In this document: positions 3,073 through 16,922 of the stretch, in pieces
Position numbering within the stretch: position 1 is the first letter of the stretch
Layout of the letters: every line of letters starts with the position of its first letter
Virus record (IMG/VR): IMGVR_UViG_3300038451_000690
Coordinates: 1-25,846 of that record
Source: a virus
Length of the DNA: 25,846 bases
Reading direction: 5' to 3' (one strand)
The notes under the pieces: model-generated
Told to the model about the DNA's origin: nothing
The model's input: the letters and a program-made list of their open reading frames with translations, nothing else
Databases searched by the model: none
Position numbers and translations under genes: made by a program

Positions 3073-4779
3073 TTGACTCAAAACTCAAGACTCAAAACTC
3101 AAAACTCTTCCGAGCCGATCAAAGAGCTTCGGGGCTATCTTGACGGGCGCATGGCGGGCTTGAGGTCCGAGCGCTGGTCCTACTGGCAGCATTGGCGCCA
3201 ACTCTCTGACTTTATTTTACCCAGGCGCGGACGGTTCCTGCAGACGCCCAACCAGGCCACAAAGGGCGATCCCGTTGGGTCGAGGATTATCAACGAGACG
3301 CCGACCCTGGCCGCAAGAACACTATCGGCGGGATTGATGGCGGGGCTGACATCCCCCGCCCGGCCCTGGTTCAGGTTATCTATTCGGGACATGGATGTTT
3401 CTGATAATACCCCGGTGAGGTTGTGGCTGGATGAAGTTACTAAGCGGCTTCTGACGGTCTTATCCCAGAGCAACGCCTACAACGCCCTGCACGTGATCTA
3501 CGAAGAACTGGGGGTGTTCGGAACCGGCTGTGTGCTCATCGAGGAGGATTACGAGGATGTCGTTCGCTGTCAGACTTTGACGGTGGGAGAATATTATCTG
3601 GCAAGCTCCGGACGAAACGAAATCGATACGCTGTACCGAGAATACGTACTCACTGTTGCTCAAATCGTTGATCGATTCGGCGTCGAGGCCTGCAGCCGGA
3701 CCGTCCAAAGCCTTTTTGAGTCCAGACAGCACGACAAGGAAATAAACGTCTGCCAGGCCATTGAGCCAAACGACGACCGGGCGCCCCAGATACCGGGCTT
3801 GAAAGGCCGCAAGTTCCGGTCTGTCGTCTGGGAGTGGGGACAAAGCCAGGATAAGGTTTTAGAGCTAAGGGGCTACCATGAACAACCCTTTTGCGCGCCA
3901 CGGTGGCACGTCATCGGGAATGATTCTTACGGCAGATCCCCCGGCATGGAATGTCTGGGCGCATCCAAGATGCTGCAGACCCTCGAGCGCAGGACTGCCC
4001 AGGCAATCGACAAGGTGCTCAATCCTCCGATGGTGGCCGATGTTTCGATGAAAAACGAGCCTGCATCGCTTTTGCCCGGCGGGGTCACTTATGTTGCCAA
4101 CCTTGCGCAAAGCGGATTTAAGCCGGCCTATGAAGTTCCGCCGGATATCCGGGGAGCTGAGGAAAAGATCGCAAAGGCCGAGGAAAGGATCAAAAGCACA
4201 TTTTTTGCCGATCTCTTCCTGATGATAAGCCAGCTCGACACGGTGAGGACCGCAACCGAGATCATCGAGCGAAAGCAGGAAAAGATGCTGATGCTCGGGC
4301 CGTTTCTGGAAAGGTCTCAGTTCGAGCTTATCAATCCGTTCATCGAGCGCGTCTTCGCGGTGATGTACCGGGCGCGGCTTATCCCTTCGGCTCCGCGCGA
4401 AATCATGGGCAGGGCCCTCGATATCGAATGTGTGTCAACGCTGGCCGATGCGCAGAAGTCAACGGCAACGACCGGCATAGAGAGGCTCGTTGCATTCGTG
4501 GGGAACCTTGCCGCGGCCAGACCCGAAACCCTCGATAACATAGATTTCGATGAAACGGTGCGCGAGTACGCGGACCTCATCGGGGTTACGCAGAAACTCA
4601 TTGTGGCCCAGCAGCAAAGGGACCTCATCAGGAAGCAGCGTGCTCAGCAGATGCAGGCCCAACAGCAGGCGCAAATGGCGATGGCGGGGGTGCAGGGGGC
4701 AAAGACCCTCAGCGAAACAGACGTTGGCGGCGGGCAGAATGCGCTGGCCAAGATGCTTGGGACGGGGCAGGCAGCATAA
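3073..4779 (+). CDS. Portal (head-to-tail connector) protein
   Basis: This 568-residue protein forms the dodecameric ring at one capsid vertex through which DNA enters and leaves. It is of the T7 gp8 head-to-tail connector type. Signature stretches are FILPRRGRFL (about 48-57), NETPTLAARTLSAGLMAGL with SPARPWFRL just after it, and the helical C-terminal part with a Gln-rich tail (MQAQQQAQMAMAG). The start is TTG 3073, two bases after the previous stop and close to a G-run. The family normally starts only a few residues before the LRGYLDGRMAGLRSERW helix, so this start is plausible. The first 12 residues (TQNSRLKTQNS) are encoded by the AAAACTC repeat and are probably not ancestral. Confidence 0.93.
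   Translation: MTQNSRLKTQNSSEPIKELRGYLDGRMAGLRSERWSYWQHWRQLSDFILPRRGRFLQTPNQATKGDPVGSRIINETPTLAARTLSAGLMAGLTSPARPWFRLSIRDMDVSDNTPVRLWLDEVTKRLLTVLSQSNAYNALHVIYEELGVFGTGCVLIEEDYEDVVRCQTLTVGEYYLASSGRNEIDTLYREYVLTVAQIVDRFGVEACSRTVQSLFESRQHDKEINVCQAIEPNDDRAPQIPGLKGRKFRSVVWEWGQSQDKVLELRGYHEQPFCAPRWHVIGNDSYGRSPGMECLGASKMLQTLERRTAQAIDKVLNPPMVADVSMKNEPASLLPGGVTYVANLAQSGFKPAYEVPPDIRGAEEKIAKAEERIKSTFFADLFLMISQLDTVRTATEIIERKQEKMLMLGPFLERSQFELINPFIERVFAVMYRARLIPSAPREIMGRALDIECVSTLADAQKSTATTGIERLVAFVGNLAAARPETLDNIDFDETVREYADLIGVTQKLIVAQQQRDLIRKQRAQQMQAQQQAQMAMAGVQGAKTLSETDVGGGQNALAKMLGTGQAA
3077..3108. repeat. ACTCAAA tandem repeat at the 5' end of the portal gene
   Basis: ACTCAAA-type units are repeated about five times. 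Bases 3088-3106 match the reverse complement of 2762-2780 at 18 of 19 positions. The repeat lies within the coding sequence and supplies the N-terminal residues of the portal protein. Confidence 0.8.
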
Positions 4780-4835: not shown

Positions 4836-5168
4836 GTGATCAGAGTAGCTCAGGCACTGGACAGTTTCAGCAATCCGTTAATTGGCGGGATACAGCAATC
4901 AGATACGATCTATGCGATTGCTCTGGCTGCAAACACCAGCCAGCAGATCCAGATCCCGACGGGGGCGAATGCGGTCAACTTTTCCGTAAGCGGCGGGACT
5001 GATTTCTACATGAAGTTCGCAAACGCGGTGATAGCCGTCCCAAGCTCAAACGTTGTTGACGGAAGCGCACCGGAGCTTAATCCGCAATTTAGATCATGTG
5101 CGGGTAAAACTTATGTGAGCCTGATCAGTGCGGCAAACTGTGTGGTGACAATTGCGTTTTACGCGTGA
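4836..5168 (+). CDS. Small virion-type protein of unknown function
   Basis: This 110-residue protein starts at GTG 4836 behind AAAGGGGA. It has no signal peptide and no membrane segment. The pattern IYAIALAANTSQQIQIPTGA, then an aromatic DFYMKF, VPSS, ELNPQFR and a final VVTIAFYA, looks like one compact beta-sandwich. Small beta-rich proteins of this kind occur among podovirus head and tail genes, but I cannot name a family. It lies between the portal and the secreted block and ends inside the upstream region of the next gene. A small decoration or fibre-base protein is possible. Confidence 0.7.
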   Translation: MIRVAQALDSFSNPLIGGIQQSDTIYAIALAANTSQQIQIPTGANAVNFSVSGGTDFYMKFANAVIAVPSSNVVDGSAPELNPQFRSCAGKTYVSLISAANCVVTIAFYA

Positions 5169-5178
5169 AGGGGCGGCG

Positions 5179-6405
5179 ATGAAAAGAGTACTGATTTTAT
5201 TGGCGGCTATTACGTTGATGTGCTCTGGCTCGGCCCTGGCGCAATACAATCAGCCGGGGCACGGGGGCAATTCGGGCAGCACGGGCCTACCAGCAGGTAC
5301 AACGGTAAACGGATCAGGCATCAATTTCCCTGGTTCAATAGGTATAGGGACTACGTCACTCCTATCAACCTCTGGTACCTGGACCAACGGCGATTACTGC
5401 ACTTATAGTTCGTCTGCCGGTTCGATAGTCTGCACGTCGGCGGGCACCGGTTCTCAGACCTGGCCTACAGGCAGTGCGGGTATCCCGAACTATAACGGCT
5501 CGAACGGGTGGGGTACATCGTATAGTGCCAGCAACCCCATCCCTGTAAACTTTCTGAAGTCAGGGACGCTCACCGATACGGACCTTTGCACTTATTCGGC
5601 CACCAACGGACTCGTTTGCAATACGCCCGTCCCGACAACTCTTCCTCCCAACGGGTCCGCAAGCGGTGATCTAAGTGGGTCATATCCCGGGCCGACGGTG
5701 GCTAAAGTAAACGGTGTAAGCTATGGCAGTTCCCCTCCCTCGCATTCCGTTCCCGTTAATGGCGTTTATAAAGTAGTCCCCGACTGCCAGGACAGTGCCG
5801 GAAACCATTTGAACTATACGCAGAGCACCGACGCTTTTAGCTGCGGAAACAGTGGCGGAGGTGGCGGCTCGATGACCTGGCCTTCCGCCGCAGGCATCGC
5901 TGTCTATGGCGGGTCAAGCGCATGGGGAACGTCTATCGGTGAAACAGATGGCAATATAATTTACGGAGCATCCGGATCATGGACTAAGGGCACCGCGCTA
6001 CCCAACGGGATCACGGCAACCACTCAGTCGGCAGATTCCAACGATACAAAGCTGGCAACTGATGCCTATGTAGATTCTGAGTTCGTTATCACAGGTACGT
6101 CTCTGACGGCAGGGGCCGCTTACTATATCAACTCAAGCACCGGCCTTGCCCTCGCACAAGCTAATTCCTCAACGACTATGCCTGCGGTTTGCGTGGCGAC
6201 CTCTTCGACCGTGTGCCGAAAAATCGGCAAGTACACCACAACGAGTCTCACTCAGGGCAGTCTCTACTATGTCAGTGACGGCGCGGCCGGACTTTTGACT
6301 ACCACAAAGCCTACAACGGTTGGGACAATAGTTCAGATCATGGGCTTTGCAGAGTCAACCACTGTGCTTGATATCAGTCCAAACCTTATGCTCATAACGA
6401 ATTAA
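5179..6405 (+). CDS. Fibre-like protein with a Sec signal peptide
   Basis: This is a 408-residue protein. I chose ATG 5179 (GAAGGGG upstream) because it gives a clean signal peptide: MKR, a hydrophobic LILLAAITLMCSGS core, and an ALA cleavage site before QYNQ. The mature part is Gly/Ser/Thr-rich with two copies of a module beginning TWP and containing a GWGTS or AWGTS turn (about residues 90-120 and 230-270). It has the phage-fibre phrase SGDLSGSYPGPTVAKVNG, a linker GGGGGS, the phrase DSNDTKLATDAYVDS, and a C-terminal beta domain with repeated LTAGAAYYI / LTQGSLYYV turns. These features point to a trimeric fibre or adhesin. Export is odd for a virion protein, because virions assemble in the cytoplasm. 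Either it acts at the cell surface or periplasm, or the leader has another use. Confidence 0.8.
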   Translation: MKRVLILLAAITLMCSGSALAQYNQPGHGGNSGSTGLPAGTTVNGSGINFPGSIGIGTTSLLSTSGTWTNGDYCTYSSSAGSIVCTSAGTGSQTWPTGSAGIPNYNGSNGWGTSYSASNPIPVNFLKSGTLTDTDLCTYSATNGLVCNTPVPTTLPPNGSASGDLSGSYPGPTVAKVNGVSYGSSPPSHSVPVNGVYKVVPDCQDSAGNHLNYTQSTDAFSCGNSGGGGGSMTWPSAAGIAVYGGSSAWGTSIGETDGNIIYGASGSWTKGTALPNGITATTQSADSNDTKLATDAYVDSEFVITGTSLTAGAAYYINSSTGLALAQANSSTTMPAVCVATSSTVCRKIGKYTTTSLTQGSLYYVSDGAAGLLTTTKPTTVGTIVQIMGFAESTTVLDISPNLMLITN

Positions 6406-6417
6406 AGGAGGCTGCCC

Positions 6418-8463
6418 ATGAGATACATTCTCTTTATACTGCTGGTGATCTCCATTCTGTTTGGCACTCACAGCTCTTTTGCCACAATGGCCTTTGACGG
6501 ATCGGGGGATCACGGGAATATTAACCCTACGGGTTCTTCCATAGTTGGAACGACGATAACAGTTCAACCTCGAATCTTGCCCGAGCCGGGGAAGTGGTAC
6601 GAATTTTTCTTTAAATTGACGGGTGCCAATGGGCAACAACCTACCTTTAAGGTCGTATGGGCTAATCATGTCTCGATTCCCTTGACCAGTCTATCCACTT
6701 ACTATTGGCAACCGTGCTGGACAACAACGCCAGATGATCTTTCCTCTTGGCAATTTGCAACCAGCTTTTCTACGGACAGCACCTATGCGACCTTTACTTT
6801 TCCAACCGCATTTTCCGCCGATACAGTCTATGTGGCTTTTCAACCTGTTGTCAGGGAGAGCTATATTCCGACTTGGATCGCAAGCCTCGACCAAACCCTT
6901 GTCTCTCAGCCTGCAAGTGCTATAGCCTTTGGAGGCGACCCCTTTCAGGTTGGAGTCGTTCCGGCCTCAACTGACGAACTTAGCAATACGATTCCGGCCC
7001 TGAAACAATACGGACTCAAGATTGGCACTGGTTCTAAAAGACTCGTCATCATATCGGGGCAACATGCGTGTGAACCTAGTGGTCCAATGATGGCTATATC
7101 TTTAGTCAACTTTCTCACTTCTGCAAATTGGGTAGCGCAGATGATGCGAGATGCCTTCACCATTTACGTCTACCCGATGGTGAACGTGCAGGGCTATTAT
7201 GCAGGGCAGACTCAGTATACTTGGGAGGCCGGAAACACCACAATCAATTGTAACAGGGATTGGTCTGTTGGCGGCTTTAAACTGGTGACTACCACCAATA
7301 TTAAAAACGCCATTCAAACCGACACGGGTGGCACATTTGACGCGTTTTTCGACCTACACGCCTGGTGGGGTACTCCAGACGGGCAGGTATGCCAATATGC
7401 GGGAAGTGCAACCGAAACAAACTGGTTGGCTAATTTTAACACTTATTATGAAACCTCTACGTCCTTTGGGACTACGTATACCACTACATCCACGGACTAT
7501 TATAAATCCGTTGGAACCATATCTATTGTGCTTGAATCATCAGTTTTTGATACCCAATCCATGAACACTTGTTCAACTGTGGTATCCAGAATGTACACAA
7601 GAGCAATCTGCGCTCTTTGCGCGATCAACCGGACATACAATATCTCTGCCGCTGGCGGGGTTAGCAGATATGGCATTGATTTTGGTGGCGATAACACGAC
7701 CAGATACTACACGGCCTCCGGCAATAGTGCCTTTGATCTTCCCAACTCTGATTGGAGCATGGGTTTCTGGGTAAAAATTGATGATAACTCGGGGTCAAAT
7801 ACCAAATATCCCGTTGGCTTCAATACAGTTGATACAGCAAATAGCTATTGGGTCAATGTAACAAATGCTTCGGCGAGTCCTGGGAATAGGATACAGTTTC
7901 GAGCCAGGGATGCGACGGGATCTGCTACGACATGGGCTACTTCGACGATTTCCGATATTGCGAACGGTGTGCCCAGGCATGTTTTGATTCAGCGTATAGG
8001 GGCTAACCTGGAAATTTGGGTTACTTCGCTTGGGGCATTGCCGCAGCGCCTGTATCAAGGTGCGTTGGGCAGCATCGGAGCGGTTACTTGCGGATCATCC
8101 GTATTCTATTTGGGTTCTCGAAATGATCTGAGCACTACCAGAATGTACACCGAGCATCTGAGTGGTCTATGGAAAGGCAATTTCTCAATAGCAAGACGAT
8201 GGGACATTGAGGGATTGTCGATGGGACTTGCTCATCCCCGTCAGTTGGGAACAGTGTCTTACATGTTCCCCCTAACCTCGCCGGCCGCAACTATTACAGA
8301 CGTGGTGAGCGGACTCGTCCTAACTCAATATGGGTCAAGTTGGCCTGCCGTATCGGCGCAGTTCCCGTCCTTTGGTTGGCCGTACACTATTGGAGGCGTG
8401 AGTTTGCCATCCAAAATCGGCGGAGTACATTCGTCGGTCATCTCTCAAGTTGGGGGGAAATAG
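6418..8463 (+). CDS. Secreted M14 (CCP-type) carboxypeptidase fused to a LamG-like domain
   Basis: This 681-residue protein has a strong ribosome binding site (AAAGGAGG). Residues 1-22 are a signal peptide. Residues about 50-150 resemble the N-terminal beta domain of cytosolic carboxypeptidases (KWYEFFFKLTGANG, TPDDLSSWQ, DTVYVAFQPV). The catalytic domain (about 185-400) has all key M14 residues in order: zinc ligands H216 and E219 in QHACEPSG, the Asn-Arg pair N279-R280 in INCNRDW, the third zinc ligand H314 in FFDLHAWW, and the general-base Glu373 in IVLESS. Residues about 418-600 look like a concanavalin A/LamG fold (IDFGGDN, SDWSMGFWVKI). The family removes C-terminal residues from peptides; the substrate here is unknown. 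The gene is more AT-rich than its neighbours (25 of 60 G+C at 7441-7500, against 37 of 60 at 11041-11100), suggesting acquisition. Confidence 0.82.
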   Translation: MRYILFILLVISILFGTHSSFATMAFDGSGDHGNINPTGSSIVGTTITVQPRILPEPGKWYEFFFKLTGANGQQPTFKVVWANHVSIPLTSLSTYYWQPCWTTTPDDLSSWQFATSFSTDSTYATFTFPTAFSADTVYVAFQPVVRESYIPTWIASLDQTLVSQPASAIAFGGDPFQVGVVPASTDELSNTIPALKQYGLKIGTGSKRLVIISGQHACEPSGPMMAISLVNFLTSANWVAQMMRDAFTIYVYPMVNVQGYYAGQTQYTWEAGNTTINCNRDWSVGGFKLVTTTNIKNAIQTDTGGTFDAFFDLHAWWGTPDGQVCQYAGSATETNWLANFNTYYETSTSFGTTYTTTSTDYYKSVGTISIVLESSVFDTQSMNTCSTVVSRMYTRAICALCAINRTYNISAAGGVSRYGIDFGGDNTTRYYTASGNSAFDLPNSDWSMGFWVKIDDNSGSNTKYPVGFNTVDTANSYWVNVTNASASPGNRIQFRARDATGSATTWATSTISDIANGVPRHVLIQRIGANLEIWVTSLGALPQRLYQGALGSIGAVTCGSSVFYLGSRNDLSTTRMYTEHLSGLWKGNFSIARRWDIEGLSMGLAHPRQLGTVSYMFPLTSPAATITDVVSGLVLTQYGSSWPAVSAQFPSFGWPYTIGGVSLPSKIGGVHSSVISQVGGK

Positions 8464-8527: not shown

Positions 8528-8890
8528 ATGAAGAAGATTCTCATTGCATTACTCGTTTTATGGGCAGCTCCGGCGTTGGCCTTATCTCTTGAATGTCCGG
8601 CGCCTCCGGGCGGCAGCGAAACACCGCTGTTTTACTACGTCACGGGGATGCCAGCGGGTACAGTTGCCACCTACACCGCTGTGCTGCCCAACTGGTTTAC
8701 GGCTACCGGGGGAGTGGCGGCAGCGCCCGACAACACCGGTGCAACGGGCTTCAAGTTGCCTCTGCCTGCATCGTTCACGACACCGAGCGTAACGGGTACA
8801 GTCATGGCATGTGACGGAGTGGGTTGCACTGCCGCCGTCCCTTTCGGACCGCCATCAACACCGGGAAGTGTCCTTTTAGTAAGTCCGTAG
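8528..8890 (+). CDS. Small secreted protein, unknown function
   Basis: This 120-residue protein starts at ATG 8528, with a GAGGGGAG sequence somewhat far upstream. It has a classic signal peptide: MKK, the hydrophobic ILIALLVLWAAP, and an ALA site around residue 18. The mature part is about 100 residues, rich in Pro, Gly, Thr and Ala, with four cysteines including CDGVGC, and reads like a single Ig- or fibronectin-like beta domain. It is the third consecutive gene with an export signal, following the secreted peptidase, so the three may act together outside the cytoplasm. I do not recognise a family. Confidence 0.72.
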   Translation: MKKILIALLVLWAAPALALSLECPAPPGGSETPLFYYVTGMPAGTVATYTAVLPNWFTATGGVAAAPDNTGATGFKLPLPASFTTPSVTGTVMACDGVGCTAAVPFGPPSTPGSVLLVSP

Positions 8891-8972: not shown

Positions 8973-9341
8973 ATGAACGATGAACAATATCGACAATCCA
9001 CACAATCCGGCGGTGCGCATGGAGGATTGCAGTTGACCGAATACAACGCAGGCGACGCCCAGCAGGTCGCAAAGGCCCAGGGCAGGGCCAAGACGCGGGA
9101 ATTGCAACGCAAATCCGGGCTTCGCAAGCTCATGTCCGATCCTGAAGGTCGTATGTGGATGTGGGACCTGCTTTCGGAATGCGGCGTATTCCACAGTTCC
9201 TTTTCAAGCGACGCTCTGACGATGGCTTTTGCCGAAGGCAGGCGAGATGTTGGCCTGCGGCGCGCAGCCGAGATCAACAGGCTCGATCCGAATCTTTATG
9301 TGAAGATGGCCCTGGAGAATACGAAGAAGTCAAACGACTAA
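8973..9341 (+). CDS. Bbp19-like phage protein
   Basis: This 122-residue protein has ATG 8973 as the likely start; only a weak ACAGGGA lies upstream. The first 35 residues are polar and Gln-rich. The core LRKLMSDPEGRMWMWDLLSECGVFHSS... continues to a conserved AFAEGRRDVGLR and ends with a helix LDPNLYVKMALEN. This GR-x-LL-x-CG, EGRR-x-VGL pattern matches the Bbp19 family first seen in Bordetella phage BPP-1, found among podovirus head genes. Its role is not known in detail; its position suggests a virion or assembly function. It is followed by the clearest terminator in the window. Confidence 0.8.
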   Translation: MNDEQYRQSTQSGGAHGGLQLTEYNAGDAQQVAKAQGRAKTRELQRKSGLRKLMSDPEGRMWMWDLLSECGVFHSSFSSDALTMAFAEGRRDVGLRRAAEINRLDPNLYVKMALENTKKSND

Positions 9342-9400: not shown

Positions 9401-9439
9401 AGAGCCCGTTTCCGTGCACGGCGGAGGCGGGCTCTTTTT
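9401..9439 (+). terminator. Rho-independent terminator
   Basis: GAGCCCG (9402-9408) pairs with CGGGCTC (9428-9434), a nested TCCG/CGGA stem strengthens the loop, and TTTTT follows at once (9435-9439). It lies between the Bbp19-like gene and the HNH gene and closes the first late transcription unit or sets up partial read-through into the head genes. Confidence 0.85.
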
Positions 9440-9458: not shown

Positions 9459-9881
9459 ATGCAGCGTCACCTAAAGCTGGTTCACGACATCTTTAACGGC
9501 AAGCCCGCACACCTGCGAAGTCCGCACTGGCACGCAGTAGAGCATGAGCATCTGAAGAAGGAGCCCGAATGCCGGCGGTGCGGGGCCACCCTGGGATTGC
9601 AGGTCCATCACATAAGGCCGTTTCATCTTGCTCCCGAGCTCGAGCTCGACCCGGAAAACCTGATCACCCTTTGCGAGGAGGGGGGATATCTCAACTGCCA
9701 CCTGATTCACGGCCACAGCGGGGACTGGCGGAACTTCAACCTTGGGGTGAGGCAAGAATGCGAGGAACACCGCAAGGGGCCTGAATGGGTGCTTCTGAGA
9801 GCAATACAAAGGCAGGACCCCGATCTCTACGAGTGGATCACAAACAGCAAACGAATATCGAAAGGAAAGAGCAATGCCTGA
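9459..9881 (+). CDS. HNH endonuclease
   Basis: This 140-residue protein starts at ATG 9459 (AAGGGGACCAA upstream). A TTG start 75 bases earlier would put the terminator hairpin inside the gene and is unlikely. The fold is a zinc-containing HNH nuclease: C38-x2-C41 (ECRRCG), the catalytic HH pair at 50-51 (QVHHIRPF), N67 in DPENLITLC, and a final NCHLIHGH segment with C80, H81, H84 and H86. The GHSGDWRNFN phrase after it matches HNH proteins often found beside podovirus head genes. Phage HNH proteins often assist DNA packaging cleavage, and that is the likely role, although it could also be a free-standing homing-type nuclease. It overlaps the scaffold gene by 8 bases. Confidence 0.87.
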   Translation: MQRHLKLVHDIFNGKPAHLRSPHWHAVEHEHLKKEPECRRCGATLGLQVHHIRPFHLAPELELDPENLITLCEEGGYLNCHLIHGHSGDWRNFNLGVRQECEEHRKGPEWVLLRAIQRQDPDLYEWITNSKRISKGKSNA

Positions 9882-10572
9882 CGAACAGACGGCGACCACA
9901 TCAACCGAGACCACCGGGACCACGGAAGCGAAGAGCGAGGATAGTTTGCAAACCAATATCCTGGCCGATGCGGAGGATAAAAAGACCGATACGGCTTCTC
10001 AGGAAACTTCAGCGGAGACCAAATCGACCGAGGAGGGGGAGAAAAAGGACGAGGGCGAAAAGAAGTCTGAGACCAAAGCTCCCGAGGCATACGAGGAATT
10101 TAAGTTGCCGGAAGGCACAACCTTAGACGAGCAGGGCATGACTGATTTTAAGGGGCTGGCCAAAGAGCTGGACCTTACTCAGGATCAGGCCCAGAAGATG
10201 CTCGACTTCGGGGGTGACAAAATAAAGGCGTTAGCCGAGGCGCCATACAGGCTGTGGGCAGAGACCCAGGCCAAGTGGCAGGCGGAAGTAAAAGCCGACC
10301 CCGAGATAGGAGGCACGAGGTTCGCCGACTCGATAGCAGCGGCTGCAAAGGTGTTCGAAGTCTCGGAGTCTAATCCGTTCGTGGGAAGTGTGGATGAGGC
10401 CAAAACGCTTCGCGAAGCGCTGAACATGACCGGTGCGGGCAACAACCCCGCAATCGTGAAGATGTTCGTAAAGATGGGGAAGCTTTTGTCCGAGCCCGGC
10501 GGCCTTTCGGGTAAGCCCGTTAAGCAGTCTCAGGAAAGTCTTCTCGACAAATTGTATCCGACAATGACCTAA
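9874..10572 (+). CDS. Capsid scaffolding protein
   Basis: This 232-residue protein guides capsid assembly and leaves before the shell matures. The start ATG 9874 lies inside the end of the HNH gene, behind AAAGGAAAGA. Residues 1-70 are extremely polar (Thr, Ser, Glu, Lys) and probably disordered. From about 74 comes EEFKLPEGTTLDEQGM, then LTQDQAQKMLDF, WQAEVKADPEIGG, and a C-terminal part with LREALNMTGAGNNPAIVKMF and GKLLSEPGG. This layout, an acidic disordered head with a KLPEG motif and a GNNP motif directly before the major capsid gene, is typical of podovirus scaffold proteins. No protease motif is visible. Confidence 0.85.
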   Translation: MPDEQTATTSTETTGTTEAKSEDSLQTNILADAEDKKTDTASQETSAETKSTEEGEKKDEGEKKSETKAPEAYEEFKLPEGTTLDEQGMTDFKGLAKELDLTQDQAQKMLDFGGDKIKALAEAPYRLWAETQAKWQAEVKADPEIGGTRFADSIAAAAKVFEVSESNPFVGSVDEAKTLREALNMTGAGNNPAIVKMFVKMGKLLSEPGGLSGKPVKQSQESLLDKLYPTMT

Positions 10573-10660: not shown

Positions 10661-11698
10661 ATGTCCACAATAGGACCTGCCGCGTTAACCCTTATGGATT
10701 GGGCAAAGCGGATCGAAGATGACGGCAAAATTGCCCAGATCATCAACCTTTTGTCCCAGACCAATGAAATCCTCGACGACATGCTCTGGATAGAGGGAAA
10801 CCTCCCCACGGGGCACAAGACGACCGTTCGCACCGGACTTCCCCAGGCCTACTGGCGCCTGCTAAACGTCGGCGTCCCGACCGGGAAATCCACAACGGCG
10901 CAGATCACCGAGACCTGCGGTCACATGGAAACCTTTTCCGATATCGACGAGATGCTGATCGAGCTTGCCGGAGATAACAAAGCCCTTCGGCTCTCCGAAG
11001 AACTTGCCTTCCTCGAGGGCATGAACCAGCAGATGGCGCAGACCATCTTCTATAACTCCATCACTTCGACCCCGGCGGCCTTCATGGGACTGGCGCCCAG
11101 ATACCCGAGCATAACGGCTGCGACCGCTCAGACCGCCAATAACGTGATCGACGCGGGCGGAACGGGTGGCACCAACACCTCTATATGGCTCATCTTCTGG
11201 GGTCCTATGTCCGTTCACGGGATATTCCCCAAAGGCATGAAGTCCGGTTTCCAGCAGATAGATCTGGGCAAACAGCAAAAGCTCGACGGCTCCAATAACG
11301 TCTATTACGTGTGGCGAAGCCAGTTCAAGTGGGACGCCGGCCTTGTTGTAAAAGACTGGAGATACGCGGTCAGGATCGGCAACATCGACGTGACACAGCT
11401 CTCAGGCGGAACACCTCCGAACTTGATCAACCTCATGATCCGCGCCATCCACAGGCTGCCGACCCAGCCCGCACGGGCCGGAAACGTACAGAAAAGCGAT
11501 GCCCCGCAGCTCACCATGGGCAGGGCGGCTTTTTATGCGAACAGGTCGGTTACTACCTGGCTCGATATCCAGGCGTTGAACAAGCAAAACGTTCTGCTCC
11601 AGATGAACGAGTTCGACGGAAAGCCGGTGACCAGTTTCAGGGGCATTCCCATCAGGACCTGCGACCAACTTTTGAACAACGAGGCGCGGATTATCTAA
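10661..11698 (+). CDS. Major capsid protein
   Basis: This 345-residue protein is the main shell subunit, presumably of HK97 fold. It starts at ATG 10661 behind a strong GAAAGGAGTG. Family features run the whole length: LTLMDWAKRIEDDGKIAQIINLL, the segment ILDDMLWIEGNLPTGHKTTVRTGLP, WRLLNVGVPTGKSTTAQITETCG, FLEGMNQQMAQTIFY, and FMGLAPRYPSI. It corresponds to the capsid proteins of BPP-1-like podoviruses, where the gene sits between scaffold and Bbp16-type cement genes, exactly as here. Length is normal and no frame damage is visible. The unusually structured spacers before and after the gene may tune its expression. Confidence 0.92.
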   Translation: MSTIGPAALTLMDWAKRIEDDGKIAQIINLLSQTNEILDDMLWIEGNLPTGHKTTVRTGLPQAYWRLLNVGVPTGKSTTAQITETCGHMETFSDIDEMLIELAGDNKALRLSEELAFLEGMNQQMAQTIFYNSITSTPAAFMGLAPRYPSITAATAQTANNVIDAGGTGGTNTSIWLIFWGPMSVHGIFPKGMKSGFQQIDLGKQQKLDGSNNVYYVWRSQFKWDAGLVVKDWRYAVRIGNIDVTQLSGGTPPNLINLMIRAIHRLPTQPARAGNVQKSDAPQLTMGRAAFYANRSVTTWLDIQALNKQNVLLQMNEFDGKPVTSFRGIPIRTCDQLLNNEARII

Positions 11699-13374: not shown

Positions 13375-13396
13375 GGGGGGGCTTGCAGGCCCCCCA
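13375..13396 (+). terminator. GC-rich hairpin, possible weak terminator
   Basis: GGGGGGC (13376-13382) pairs with GCCCCCC (13389-13395) over a 6-base loop, followed by ATTTAAAC rather than a T-run. It separates the head genes from the lysis genes and may cause partial termination or protect the mRNA. Confidence 0.5.
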
Positions 13397-13427
13397 TTTA
13401 AACAACCAAAAACACAGGGAGAAAGAG

Positions 13428-13883
13428 ATGAAGGGTTTCAAGGGATTTGCAGCAATCGTTTTGGTGTGTCTTTTTTGCGCCGCTTTTTCTTTTGGCTGTG
13501 CCGCTCTCAAGGCTGATTTCGCCAAAGTGGAGACCAAACTGGAAGCCGTTGACTGGCCGGCAGTTCAAGCCTACTGGAGCAAATTCGCCGCAGGCTTGAA
13601 TGAGGCCCTTCCGGTTATAGAGGCGCTTTTCCCCGGAAGCAAATCCACAATCGACAAGGTTGTGACTCCGGTTCTGGCCGATGCGAACACGGCGGTTACG
13701 GCCCTTACAACCAGCGTGCAGGCCTACAAGGCCGGAACTTTGACTGAAGACCAGGTGCAGGCGGCGGCCAAAGAAGTGCAGTCCAGTGTCACGGCGGCCA
13801 GCGCCGTCGTCGGTCAGGCACTCAAGGGCAAGGTGGGCGTGTCTGCCACAACGGCCAAAACCGCCGCGGTCCCTACGAAGTAG
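13428..13883 (+). CDS. Exported helical protein, possible lipoprotein, at the lysis region
   Basis: This 151-residue protein has ATG 13428 behind CAGGGAGAAAGAG. Residues 1-23 are a signal sequence (FAAIVLVCLFCAAFSFG) followed by C24, so a lipoprotein cleavage is possible, although SFGC is not a perfect lipobox. The mature part is Ala/Thr/Val-rich and predicted helical, with a DWPAVQAYWSKFAAGLNEALP segment and a VQAAAKEVQSS helix. It is the first gene of the lysis region, followed by holin-like and muramidase genes. An outer-membrane spanin-like or entry-exclusion role is conceivable; it is longer than ordinary outer spanins. Function not known. Confidence 0.7.
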   Translation: MKGFKGFAAIVLVCLFCAAFSFGCAALKADFAKVETKLEAVDWPAVQAYWSKFAAGLNEALPVIEALFPGSKSTIDKVVTPVLADANTAVTALTTSVQAYKAGTLTEDQVQAAAKEVQSSVTAASAVVGQALKGKVGVSATTAKTAAVPTK

Positions 13884-14358: not shown

Positions 14359-14772
14359 ATGCCTGACTATCCGGAAGATTTCCTGGTTGCGGTAAACGAT
14401 CTCATCGACAATTGGGAGGGGGGTTACGTAAACGATCCCAAGGACCCCGGCGGGGAGACCAGGTACGGGATCAGCAAGCGCTCCTATCCCAATGTGGATA
14501 TTAAGACGCTAACCCGCGACGGAGCGATCACGCTCTACTATTACGATTACTGGCTTGGGCCTCACATGGAAAAAATAGATCCGGCCATGCGCGCCAAGGT
14601 CTTCAATATGGGGGTTCTCGTGGGACCACAGACGGCCAAAAATCTGGCGATAGGCTGCCATAACCTCGATGAGTACCGCCAGGTCTGCAAGAAACACTTT
14701 GAGGCTATCGTCATCAGGCACCCCGTCTGCGCGAAGTATCTGAGGGGTTGGACAAGGAGAGCACTGGCATGA
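14359..14772 (+). CDS. GH108-type endolysin (N-acetylmuramidase), shortened
   Basis: This 137-residue enzyme would cut the peptidoglycan glycan chain during lysis. The GH108 core is intact: catalytic Glu20 in NWEGGYVNDPKDPGGETRYGIS and LYYYDYWLGP (59-68). The C-terminal peptidoglycan-binding part is compressed. VFNMGV (81-86), which normally opens a longer helical domain, is joined almost directly to GPQTAKNL, and the protein ends YLRGWTRRALA. Family members are usually about 165-190 residues, so roughly 30-40 residues seem to be missing from the middle, without loss of frame. No signal peptide is present, so it needs a holin. The stop overlaps the start of the next gene (ATGA). Confidence 0.85.
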   Translation: MPDYPEDFLVAVNDLIDNWEGGYVNDPKDPGGETRYGISKRSYPNVDIKTLTRDGAITLYYYDYWLGPHMEKIDPAMRAKVFNMGVLVGPQTAKNLAIGCHNLDEYRQVCKKHFEAIVIRHPVCAKYLRGWTRRALA

Positions 14773-15806: not shown

Positions 15807-16922
15807 ATGCTCACTACGACGCAATCTTATGTGCAGTATCAGGGCAACGGCGTAACGACCGTTTTTCCATACAACTTTCCCATTCCGGCCGCCGGAGACC
15901 TGGTCGTTTCGGTTACGGACAACAATGTCAGTCCCGCGGTATCGACGGTCCTGCAGGCTACGCAATACTCCGTCACCGGGATCGGAAGCCCCGCCGGAGG
16001 CAATGTTACCTACTTGACGCTTCCATCCGGCTGGACGATCACGATTCAGCGGATCGTGGCGTTTCAGCAGAATACGTCTCTTACAAATCAGGGGGCGCTA
16101 TACCCCGCGGTGGTAGAAGGGGCGCTTGATTATCTCACCATGGCGATGCAGCAGCTTGCCGCCGGATTATCCTCCACGGGTCCGATACTGCCGGTCTTTC
16201 TCTCCTCGATGCAAACACTGACGCCTAATTCCGCGACCCCATCTGTAGCGAGTTTGGCCCCGATTTATCGGTCTGCTAATACACTCTCCACCACGATTAC
16301 CAGTTTTGCGGGTTTAACACCTGGATATGCTTTTGCGATCATATTCGGTGACGCAAATACCACCATCAGTTTCGGAGCGGGGATCAAAGGACGCGGTGGG
16401 TCCTCGACCTGGACGCCCCAGGTCGGTGACATCCTTTACTGCGTGAGTGATGGCAGTTTCGTCTACACAATCGATTCGGGCCTCTATGCGAGTCTAGTCG
16501 CCAATACGGCCGCGCAGATCGCCGCTTTTGCCCCTTCCGGTCTCTGGACGCCCTCTCTCACTTTTGGCGGCGCGTCTGTCGGAATGACCTATTCATCGCG
16601 TGGAGGATCATATCAGGTATTAGGCAAGGTTTGCGTGTGCGCATTTGCATTATCTTTATCCGCAAAAGGTACTTCCACCGGCACCGCAGTGATCACCGGA
16701 TTGCCCGTTGCCGCGATGGGTTACGGGGGTGTGGGGGGAAATATTGTGACATCGGATGCCAACTTTACCGGATTAACTGGTCCGGTAATGTTGGATACCA
16801 CTTACGGGACGACCACTGCCACGATAGGGGATCCGGGAGCCACGGGATTGGGCGGTCTAACCGATAGTTTTTTTACTAACACTACCTATTTGGGCTCAAC
16901 TTTCATGTATTTTATAGCATAA
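15807..16922 (+). CDS. Tail fibre with a T7-type N-terminal anchor
   Basis: This 371-residue protein is the likely receptor-binding fibre. The start ATG 15807 follows AAAAGGA. Residues 1-125 match the tail-attachment domain of podovirus fibres: QSYVQYQGNGVTTVFPYNFPI, DLVVSVTDN, TQYSVTGIGSPAGGNVTYL, ITIQRIVAFQQNTSL, VVEGALDYLTMAMQQL. Residues about 125-371 are Thr/Ser/Gly-rich beta repeats ending in a hydrophobic YLGSTFMYFIA, without an enzyme motif I can see, so this is a plain fibre rather than a spike with depolymerase. It is short; a longer host-contacting part may lie in another gene. Confidence 0.82.
   Translation: MLTTTQSYVQYQGNGVTTVFPYNFPIPAAGDLVVSVTDNNVSPAVSTVLQATQYSVTGIGSPAGGNVTYLTLPSGWTITIQRIVAFQQNTSLTNQGALYPAVVEGALDYLTMAMQQLAAGLSSTGPILPVFLSSMQTLTPNSATPSVASLAPIYRSANTLSTTITSFAGLTPGYAFAIIFGDANTTISFGAGIKGRGGSSTWTPQVGDILYCVSDGSFVYTIDSGLYASLVANTAAQIAAFAPSGLWTPSLTFGGASVGMTYSSRGGSYQVLGKVCVCAFALSLSAKGTSTGTAVITGLPVAAMGYGGVGGNIVTSDANFTGLTGPVMLDTTYGTTTATIGDPGATGLGGLTDSFFTNTTYLGSTFMYFIA

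Follow-up and report, generated by a model that had tools for sequence, protein, structure and literature searches.

The gene at positions 6418..8463 (+ strand) of the virus record IMGVR_UViG_3300038451_000690 encodes a protein of 681 aa, P0001, which its sequence probably places, as a new phage-borne form fused to a lectin-like domain, in the CCP branch of the carboxypeptidases. The record is linear and 25.8 kb long, and all of its 25,846 nucleotides were analysed (hereafter, the window). P0001 is encoded by the second of three genes that fill a variable, signal-peptide-rich slot in the head operon, between the genes of two small proteins, o110 and o122. Our favoured but tentative reading is that P0001 is exchangeable cargo exported by the Sec system, and that, around the time of infection and release, it would act as a glycan-docking carboxypeptidase on peptide components in the envelope or matrix of the host cell.

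The phage and its late operon

Terminase, portal, head, tail and internal virion proteins place the phage near epsilon15 and BPP-1; it is a podovirus of this type, and the P0001 gene lies in its late operon. The portal or head-tail adaptor (3073..4779, + strand; phrog_332, E 1e-174) shares 40-44% identity with portals of the epsilon15/BPP-1 type. Beyond the slot, a protease/scaffold-like protein (9874..10572, + strand; phrog_458) and the major head protein (10661..11698, + strand; phrog_212) are encoded, which confirms that the P0001 gene sits between portal and capsid genes, as had been claimed from a first reading of the DNA. The order of portal, gp5/Bbp19-type gene, protease and major head protein is the same in epsilon15 (Uetakevirus) and BPP-1 (Rauchvirus). 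However, both genomes lack o110 and the slot with its signal-peptide cargo: in epsilon15, gp5, protease and head protein directly follow the portal, and BPP-1 has only one small ORF extra. The initial annotation was therefore right to call this position non-standard for a podovirus.

Elsewhere in the window we found a tail fibre of the ordinary T7 type (15807-16922) and a GH108 endolysin-type gene (14359-14772), so the phage owns an ordinary lysis enzyme. A small gene (13383-13883) whose lipoprotein-like product has a signal sequence is kept by the sister phages (43-65% identity). A terminator-like hairpin after o122 (9401..9435, + strand; 15 pairs and a T tail, recognised by pattern match only) is strong and lies at the start of an HNH ORF; the HNH gene itself probably begins beyond the hairpin. 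A search against Rfam gave no match.

P0001 is an M14 protein, probably of CCP type, with a predicted signal peptide

The P0001 frame starts with ATG, immediately preceded by the Shine-Dalgarno sequence AAAGGAGG. Inspection of the translation and a crude script both identified a signal peptide, MRYILFILLVISILFGTHSSFA, encoded by positions 6418..6483 (+ strand; residues 1-22), with a predicted cleavage SFA|T and a mature protein beginning with TMAF, in agreement with the earlier claim. The lower GC content of the gene (48.5% versus about 55%) likewise bears out the foreign composition attributed to it.

Directly behind the signal peptide begins a putative CCP-type N-terminal beta domain (6487..6984, + strand; residues ~24-189), which is followed by the M14 catalytic domain (6985..7647, + strand; residues ~190-410). 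Peptidase_M14 reached 35.3 bits (cut-off 21.6) and was the only peptidase family above cut-off for P0001 in Pfam. The active-site residues H216, E219, N279, R280, H314 and E373 stand at exactly the positions that had been predicted for them: the predicted zinc ligands of the His-x-x-Glu motif and the distal His (H216, E219 and H314), the Asn-Arg substrate pair (N279-R280) and the catalytic Glu (CPA Glu270), which is E373. In an alignment of seven sequences of diverse relatives, H216, E219, N279, R280, D312 and H314 are invariant. An Arg at CPA position 127 is a feature of classical M14 members, and P0001 has Gln266 instead; in the same alignment the Arg is also absent from several bacterial relatives. 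To judge from the sequence, this replacement may lower or alter the activity.

Assignment to the CCP branch, as a secreted enzyme, had also been proposed in the initial annotation and is supported by two comparisons. As an isolated fragment, the N-domain matched Pepdidase_M14_N, the N-domain of cytosolic carboxypeptidases, with E 9e-4 and 19.8 bits, under the 23.2-bit cut-off. Additionally, a profile built from P0001 and two homologs (L273 and L281) matched the solved bacterial CCP structures 3k2k, 4b6z, 3l2n and 4a37 over both the N-domain and the catalytic domain (E<1e-28), a support that comes from the family rather than from P0001 alone, since the profile has two bacterial sequences among its three. 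A single-sequence AlphaFold model of P0001 was unusable (pLDDT 35). Like these bacterial CCP-type M14 proteins and L273, P0001 combines a probable N-domain of this type with a catalytic domain and the HxxE...NR...H...E pattern; it differs from them in being phage-borne, in the Gln at the Arg127 position and in an identity of only about 26-29%. L273, from a Desulfobacterota genome, also has a signal-like N-terminal sequence, and it ends in a dockerin-like tail where P0001 has a LamG-like domain.

This C-terminal LamG/ConA-like domain (7663..8367, + strand; residues ~416-650) is the weakest element of our domain reading. Laminin_G_3 matched the isolated fragment with E 0.014 and 15.9 bits, below the cut-off of 27.6, and neither a solved structure in the PDB nor a phage protein matched it. 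The lectin-like fusion described earlier stays plausible; its naming as LamG is weakly supported. Common ancestry with the LamG-like slot proteins of sister phages was considered and found no support from BLAST, and the C-terminal IGGV repeat of P0001 had no match in the other loci.

A variable slot rich in signal peptides

The slot opens behind o110 (4836..5168, + strand), a small beta-sandwich protein (AlphaFold pLDDT 80; alignment) whose Foldseek matches are unnamed proteins of phages, about 110 aa long, and is closed by the conserved o122 (8973..9341, + strand; phrog_528), which takes the position of epsilon15 gp5. On the same strand as P0001, the first slot gene (5179..6405; 408 aa) encodes a signal peptide and a fibre-like low-complexity protein, as judged from the sequence and the signal-peptide test, and the third (8528..8890; 120 aa) a signal peptide and a small protein. 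That three adjacent genes all have signal peptides, and that related phages use the same hypervariable slot likewise, had been overlooked in the initial annotation.

Among 53 loci fetched by their portal, the stretch from o110 to o122 measures from nothing up to 5 kb. The slot is empty in L005, L007, L009, L011 and L031, and also in L019, L024 and L029, which are without o110; it is filled in the window, L004, L006/L035, L010, L015, L017, L018, L020, L022, L025 and the MAG locus L061. With duplicates removed and a rearranged locus (L068) included, signal peptides were predicted for 19 of 23 slot genes versus 9 of 202 other genes of the same loci, a large contrast for which the Fisher p of 3e-17 is only a guide, given that the predictor is our own crude script and that the genes are not fully independent. 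Three of the nine signal-peptide genes outside the slot are one conserved lipoprotein.

The slot proteins are mostly unrelated to one another. Short N-termini are common to L004 and L010, and to the first slot protein of the window and that of L017, in which the first 39 aa are 46% identical and the bodies unrelated; L035 and L068 form the single pair related over full length (33%). A Q-aromatic-x-QPG-like motif recurs at the mature N-termini of first slot genes in the window, L017, L025, L022 and L035, again with unrelated bodies, and may be a docking tag. In L068, o110 and a signal-peptide gene have changed sides together relative to the portal, as if the two formed one cassette. In this Deltaproteobacteria contig (8786-15628), a second signal-peptide gene (670 aa, tail-spike-like) comes after the portal; the fibre encoded next weakly matches the second domain of Mtd, as in BPP-1.

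The cargo includes a second enzyme. In L018 (4915-7530; also in L212 and partially in L213), an 871 aa protein with a signal peptide holds a GH30 domain among SMSGGAVAGGSF repeats; it scored 40 bits in Pfam, has the NEP and TE motifs and is nearest to the glucuronoarabinoxylan xylanase XynC (148 bits, below the equivalog cut-off). Other slot proteins resemble fibres, and fibre-type matches in phages were found for the slot partners: L068 has a tail-spike-like protein (phrog_14442, tail protein), L017 a collar-fibre-like protein of 1072 aa (phrog_24919, tail fiber) and L020 a Gly-rich protein, in a cargo set without signal peptides. Ig-like proteins in L022 and L061 scored below threshold, and the slot proteins of L017 and L025 look LamG-like by eye, with no supporting library match. 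We know of no earlier description of a head operon with a hypervariable site that serves Sec-exported proteins. Our search for papers on signal peptides of tail fibres or on phage M14 enzymes, with subscription journals and preprints outside its scope, gave no direct precedent.

The main rival to exported cargo is a role as virion appendages. The slot proteins, P0001 included, could be accessory fibres or spikes of the particle whose signal peptides serve periplasmic assembly or processing, the Q-aromatic-x-QPG-like motif docking them on o110 or the capsid. The tail-type PHROG matches of L017 and L068 and the Gly-rich protein of L020 speak for this, as do first slot genes that share a signal peptide and a short mature N-terminus ahead of differing bodies, the joint move of o110 and a signal-peptide gene in L068, and the phage-type beta-sandwich fold of o110. 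However, classical cleavable signal peptides are unexpected on proteins that are assembled on virions in the cytoplasm, and the phage already has a normal T7-type tail fibre. P0001 itself lacks the common mature N-terminus; we found in it no PHROG match and no known N-terminal domain for virion attachment, its signal peptide coming first. We consider a virion role rather unlikely.

Proposed role of P0001 and of the slot

The export, glycan binding, activity, substrate and benefit to the phage that we infer for P0001 could fit together as follows. P0001 would be made late in infection, a timing read from gene position, since promoter-like matches in the window are no more frequent than expected by chance. 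The host Sec system would carry it across the inner membrane, with cleavage by signal peptidase predicted behind Ala22. In a host with two membranes, Sec alone reaches the periplasm only; mature P0001 would thus be active there, and outside the cell after rupture of the outer membrane or onward secretion. Its LamG-like domain could tether it to glycans, and the zinc carboxypeptidase would shorten, from their exposed C-termini, peptides in the envelope or matrix of the host. In other slots, lectin-like, fibre-like and glycan-hydrolase proteins may serve the same task, that is, to open or modify a coat so that progeny can spread, or to give the infected cell a different surface.

We favour P0001 as exported cargo because its M14 domain scores above cut-off, a signal peptide is fused at the N-domain, the slot is rich in signal peptides, empty in several relatives and holds a second enzyme (GH30), a phage precedent exists in PghP, close portals occur in Syntrophobacteraceae and Deltaproteobacteria MAGs, and two relatives have an integrase. 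Doubt on an exported enzyme arises from the sub-threshold LamG match, Gln266, the fibre-like slot neighbours and the L020 cargo set devoid of signal peptides. For the clade as a whole, we put forward, with less than even confidence, that these Desulfobacterota podoviruses keep in the head operon an exchange slot, opened by the beta-sandwich protein, for Sec-exported adhesins, lectins and hydrolases (M14-LamG, GH30, tail-spike-like), and would use it to change the surface or matrix of the host from inside the cell, before lysis or during it, and not only from the virion. If true, a whole phage clade sends fast-changing surface-active proteins through host secretion, from a slot that keeps its place in the capsid operon. 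The slot would then be a hunting ground for new phage enzymes directed at the envelopes and biofilm matrices of bog bacteria not yet cultured, and would allow the effect of phages on the cell exterior during infection to be tested directly.

As a rule, the depolymerases of phages either belong to the virion or are set free when the cell lyses. Podovirus tail spikes and soluble depolymerases resemble the slot cargo in being exchangeable, glycan-interacting or hydrolytic proteins encoded beside structural genes; the slot cargo differs from them in its Sec signal peptides and in its place between portal and capsid genes, away from the tail fibre. PghP of phage NIT1 is a phage-encoded, soluble, CPA-like zinc hydrolase that strips a poly-gamma-glutamate coat, and the PghP/Pgh family (phage NIT1 and Bacillus prophages; MEROPS M86) is thought to open the peptide coat (PMC4497714, PMC6506827). 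It is a protein of 23 kDa in which His, Thr and Ser replace Arg127, Asn144 and Arg145 (PMC6506827). By analogy, PghP would be the nearest functional precedent among phages for P0001, which is of another family, retains the Asn-Arg pair and carries a signal peptide as well as additional domains. Membership of P0001 in PghP/M86 was considered and rejected, as only M14 exceeds its Pfam cut-off and N279-R280 are kept. Nothing points in particular to the polyglutamate substrate raised in the initial annotation; such a specificity is neither supported nor excluded.

Alternatively, P0001 might be a periplasmic helper that trims stem peptides of peptidoglycan, aiding lysis or stopping the entry of superinfecting DNA. 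Csd4 and Pgp1 are bacterial M14 enzymes with this trimming activity, and Sec export would put P0001 right beside the wall. Yet its domain layout differs from theirs, the N-domain and the profile matches assigning it to the CCP branch; the phage has its own GH108 endolysin, and the sister phage records that we searched are without such an enzyme. We regard a role on the wall as improbable.

Hosts, lysogeny and distribution

The closest portals found, 73-84% identical to that of the window, come from MAGs of Deltaproteobacteria and Syntrophobacteraceae; one such MAG is from a bog and two are labelled anoxic. In two MAG contigs, L056 and L068, bacterial nuo-type genes (named by eye) adjoin phage genes, which suggests prophages in Deltaproteobacteria/Syntrophobacteraceae-like hosts. 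The stretches where phage genes meet these NADH dehydrogenase genes (L056 11677-21419; L068 1-1800) are on contigs of two different MAGs, suggesting a preferred integration site near the nuo operon. Two close virus records have a tyrosine integrase, and the group probably consists of temperate podoviruses of Desulfobacterota. The phage of the window, which is from a bog, would thereby infect bacteria of the sulfate-reducer type.

Lysogeny raises the possibility that the slot carries moron cargo, by which a prophage would give its host secreted enzymes or adhesins useful in peat, for example in polymer degradation or attachment. The integrase of relatives, the prophage-like contigs with host genes, the xylanase-like GH30 cargo and the foreign composition of the P0001 gene all fit. 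Against it, the slot genes are part of the late head operon, where promoter-like signals do not exceed chance, and many cargo proteins are fibre-like; we consider such conversion improbable.

Returning to exported cargo, P0001 is a rare item gained by one phage lineage, and the general use of the slot is common to its relatives. Scans with the full protein, the core and the three-member alignment found a single viral copy besides the window, in L001, a separately assembled, near-identical contig (59 differences in 11,422 sites, 99.4% DNA identity). No M14 gene was found in any of 46 related virus records. We found no direct homolog in cultured phages and plasmids, nor any homolog in seven host-like MAGs. 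Distant homologs occur in one of 395 sampled Desulfobacterota genomes and in seven of 289 genomes from the phylum to which an Opitutae MAG belongs. The initial annotation held that homologs confined to bacterial chromosomes and never near phage genes would refute its reading; this applies by half, as the distant ones found are all in bacterial genomes, but P0001 itself lies firmly inside a phage late operon in two contigs. A recent chance insertion without selected function, which the low GC content and the restriction to one phage species would fit, is hardly credible, as between window and L001 the gene shows four silent and three coding changes, no stop and an intact 681 aa frame, all catalytic residues are kept, and sister phages have the same kind of cargo.

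Finally, some relatives appear to have decayed. In L012 (5443-6474), L013 and L014, contigs that come from several samples, one ORF is a fusion of the N-terminal 148 residues of the major head protein with the C-terminal 222 residues of the tail protein (phrog_376), and a similar junction occurs in L015 and L016. These look like defective prophages in which the tail module was deleted.
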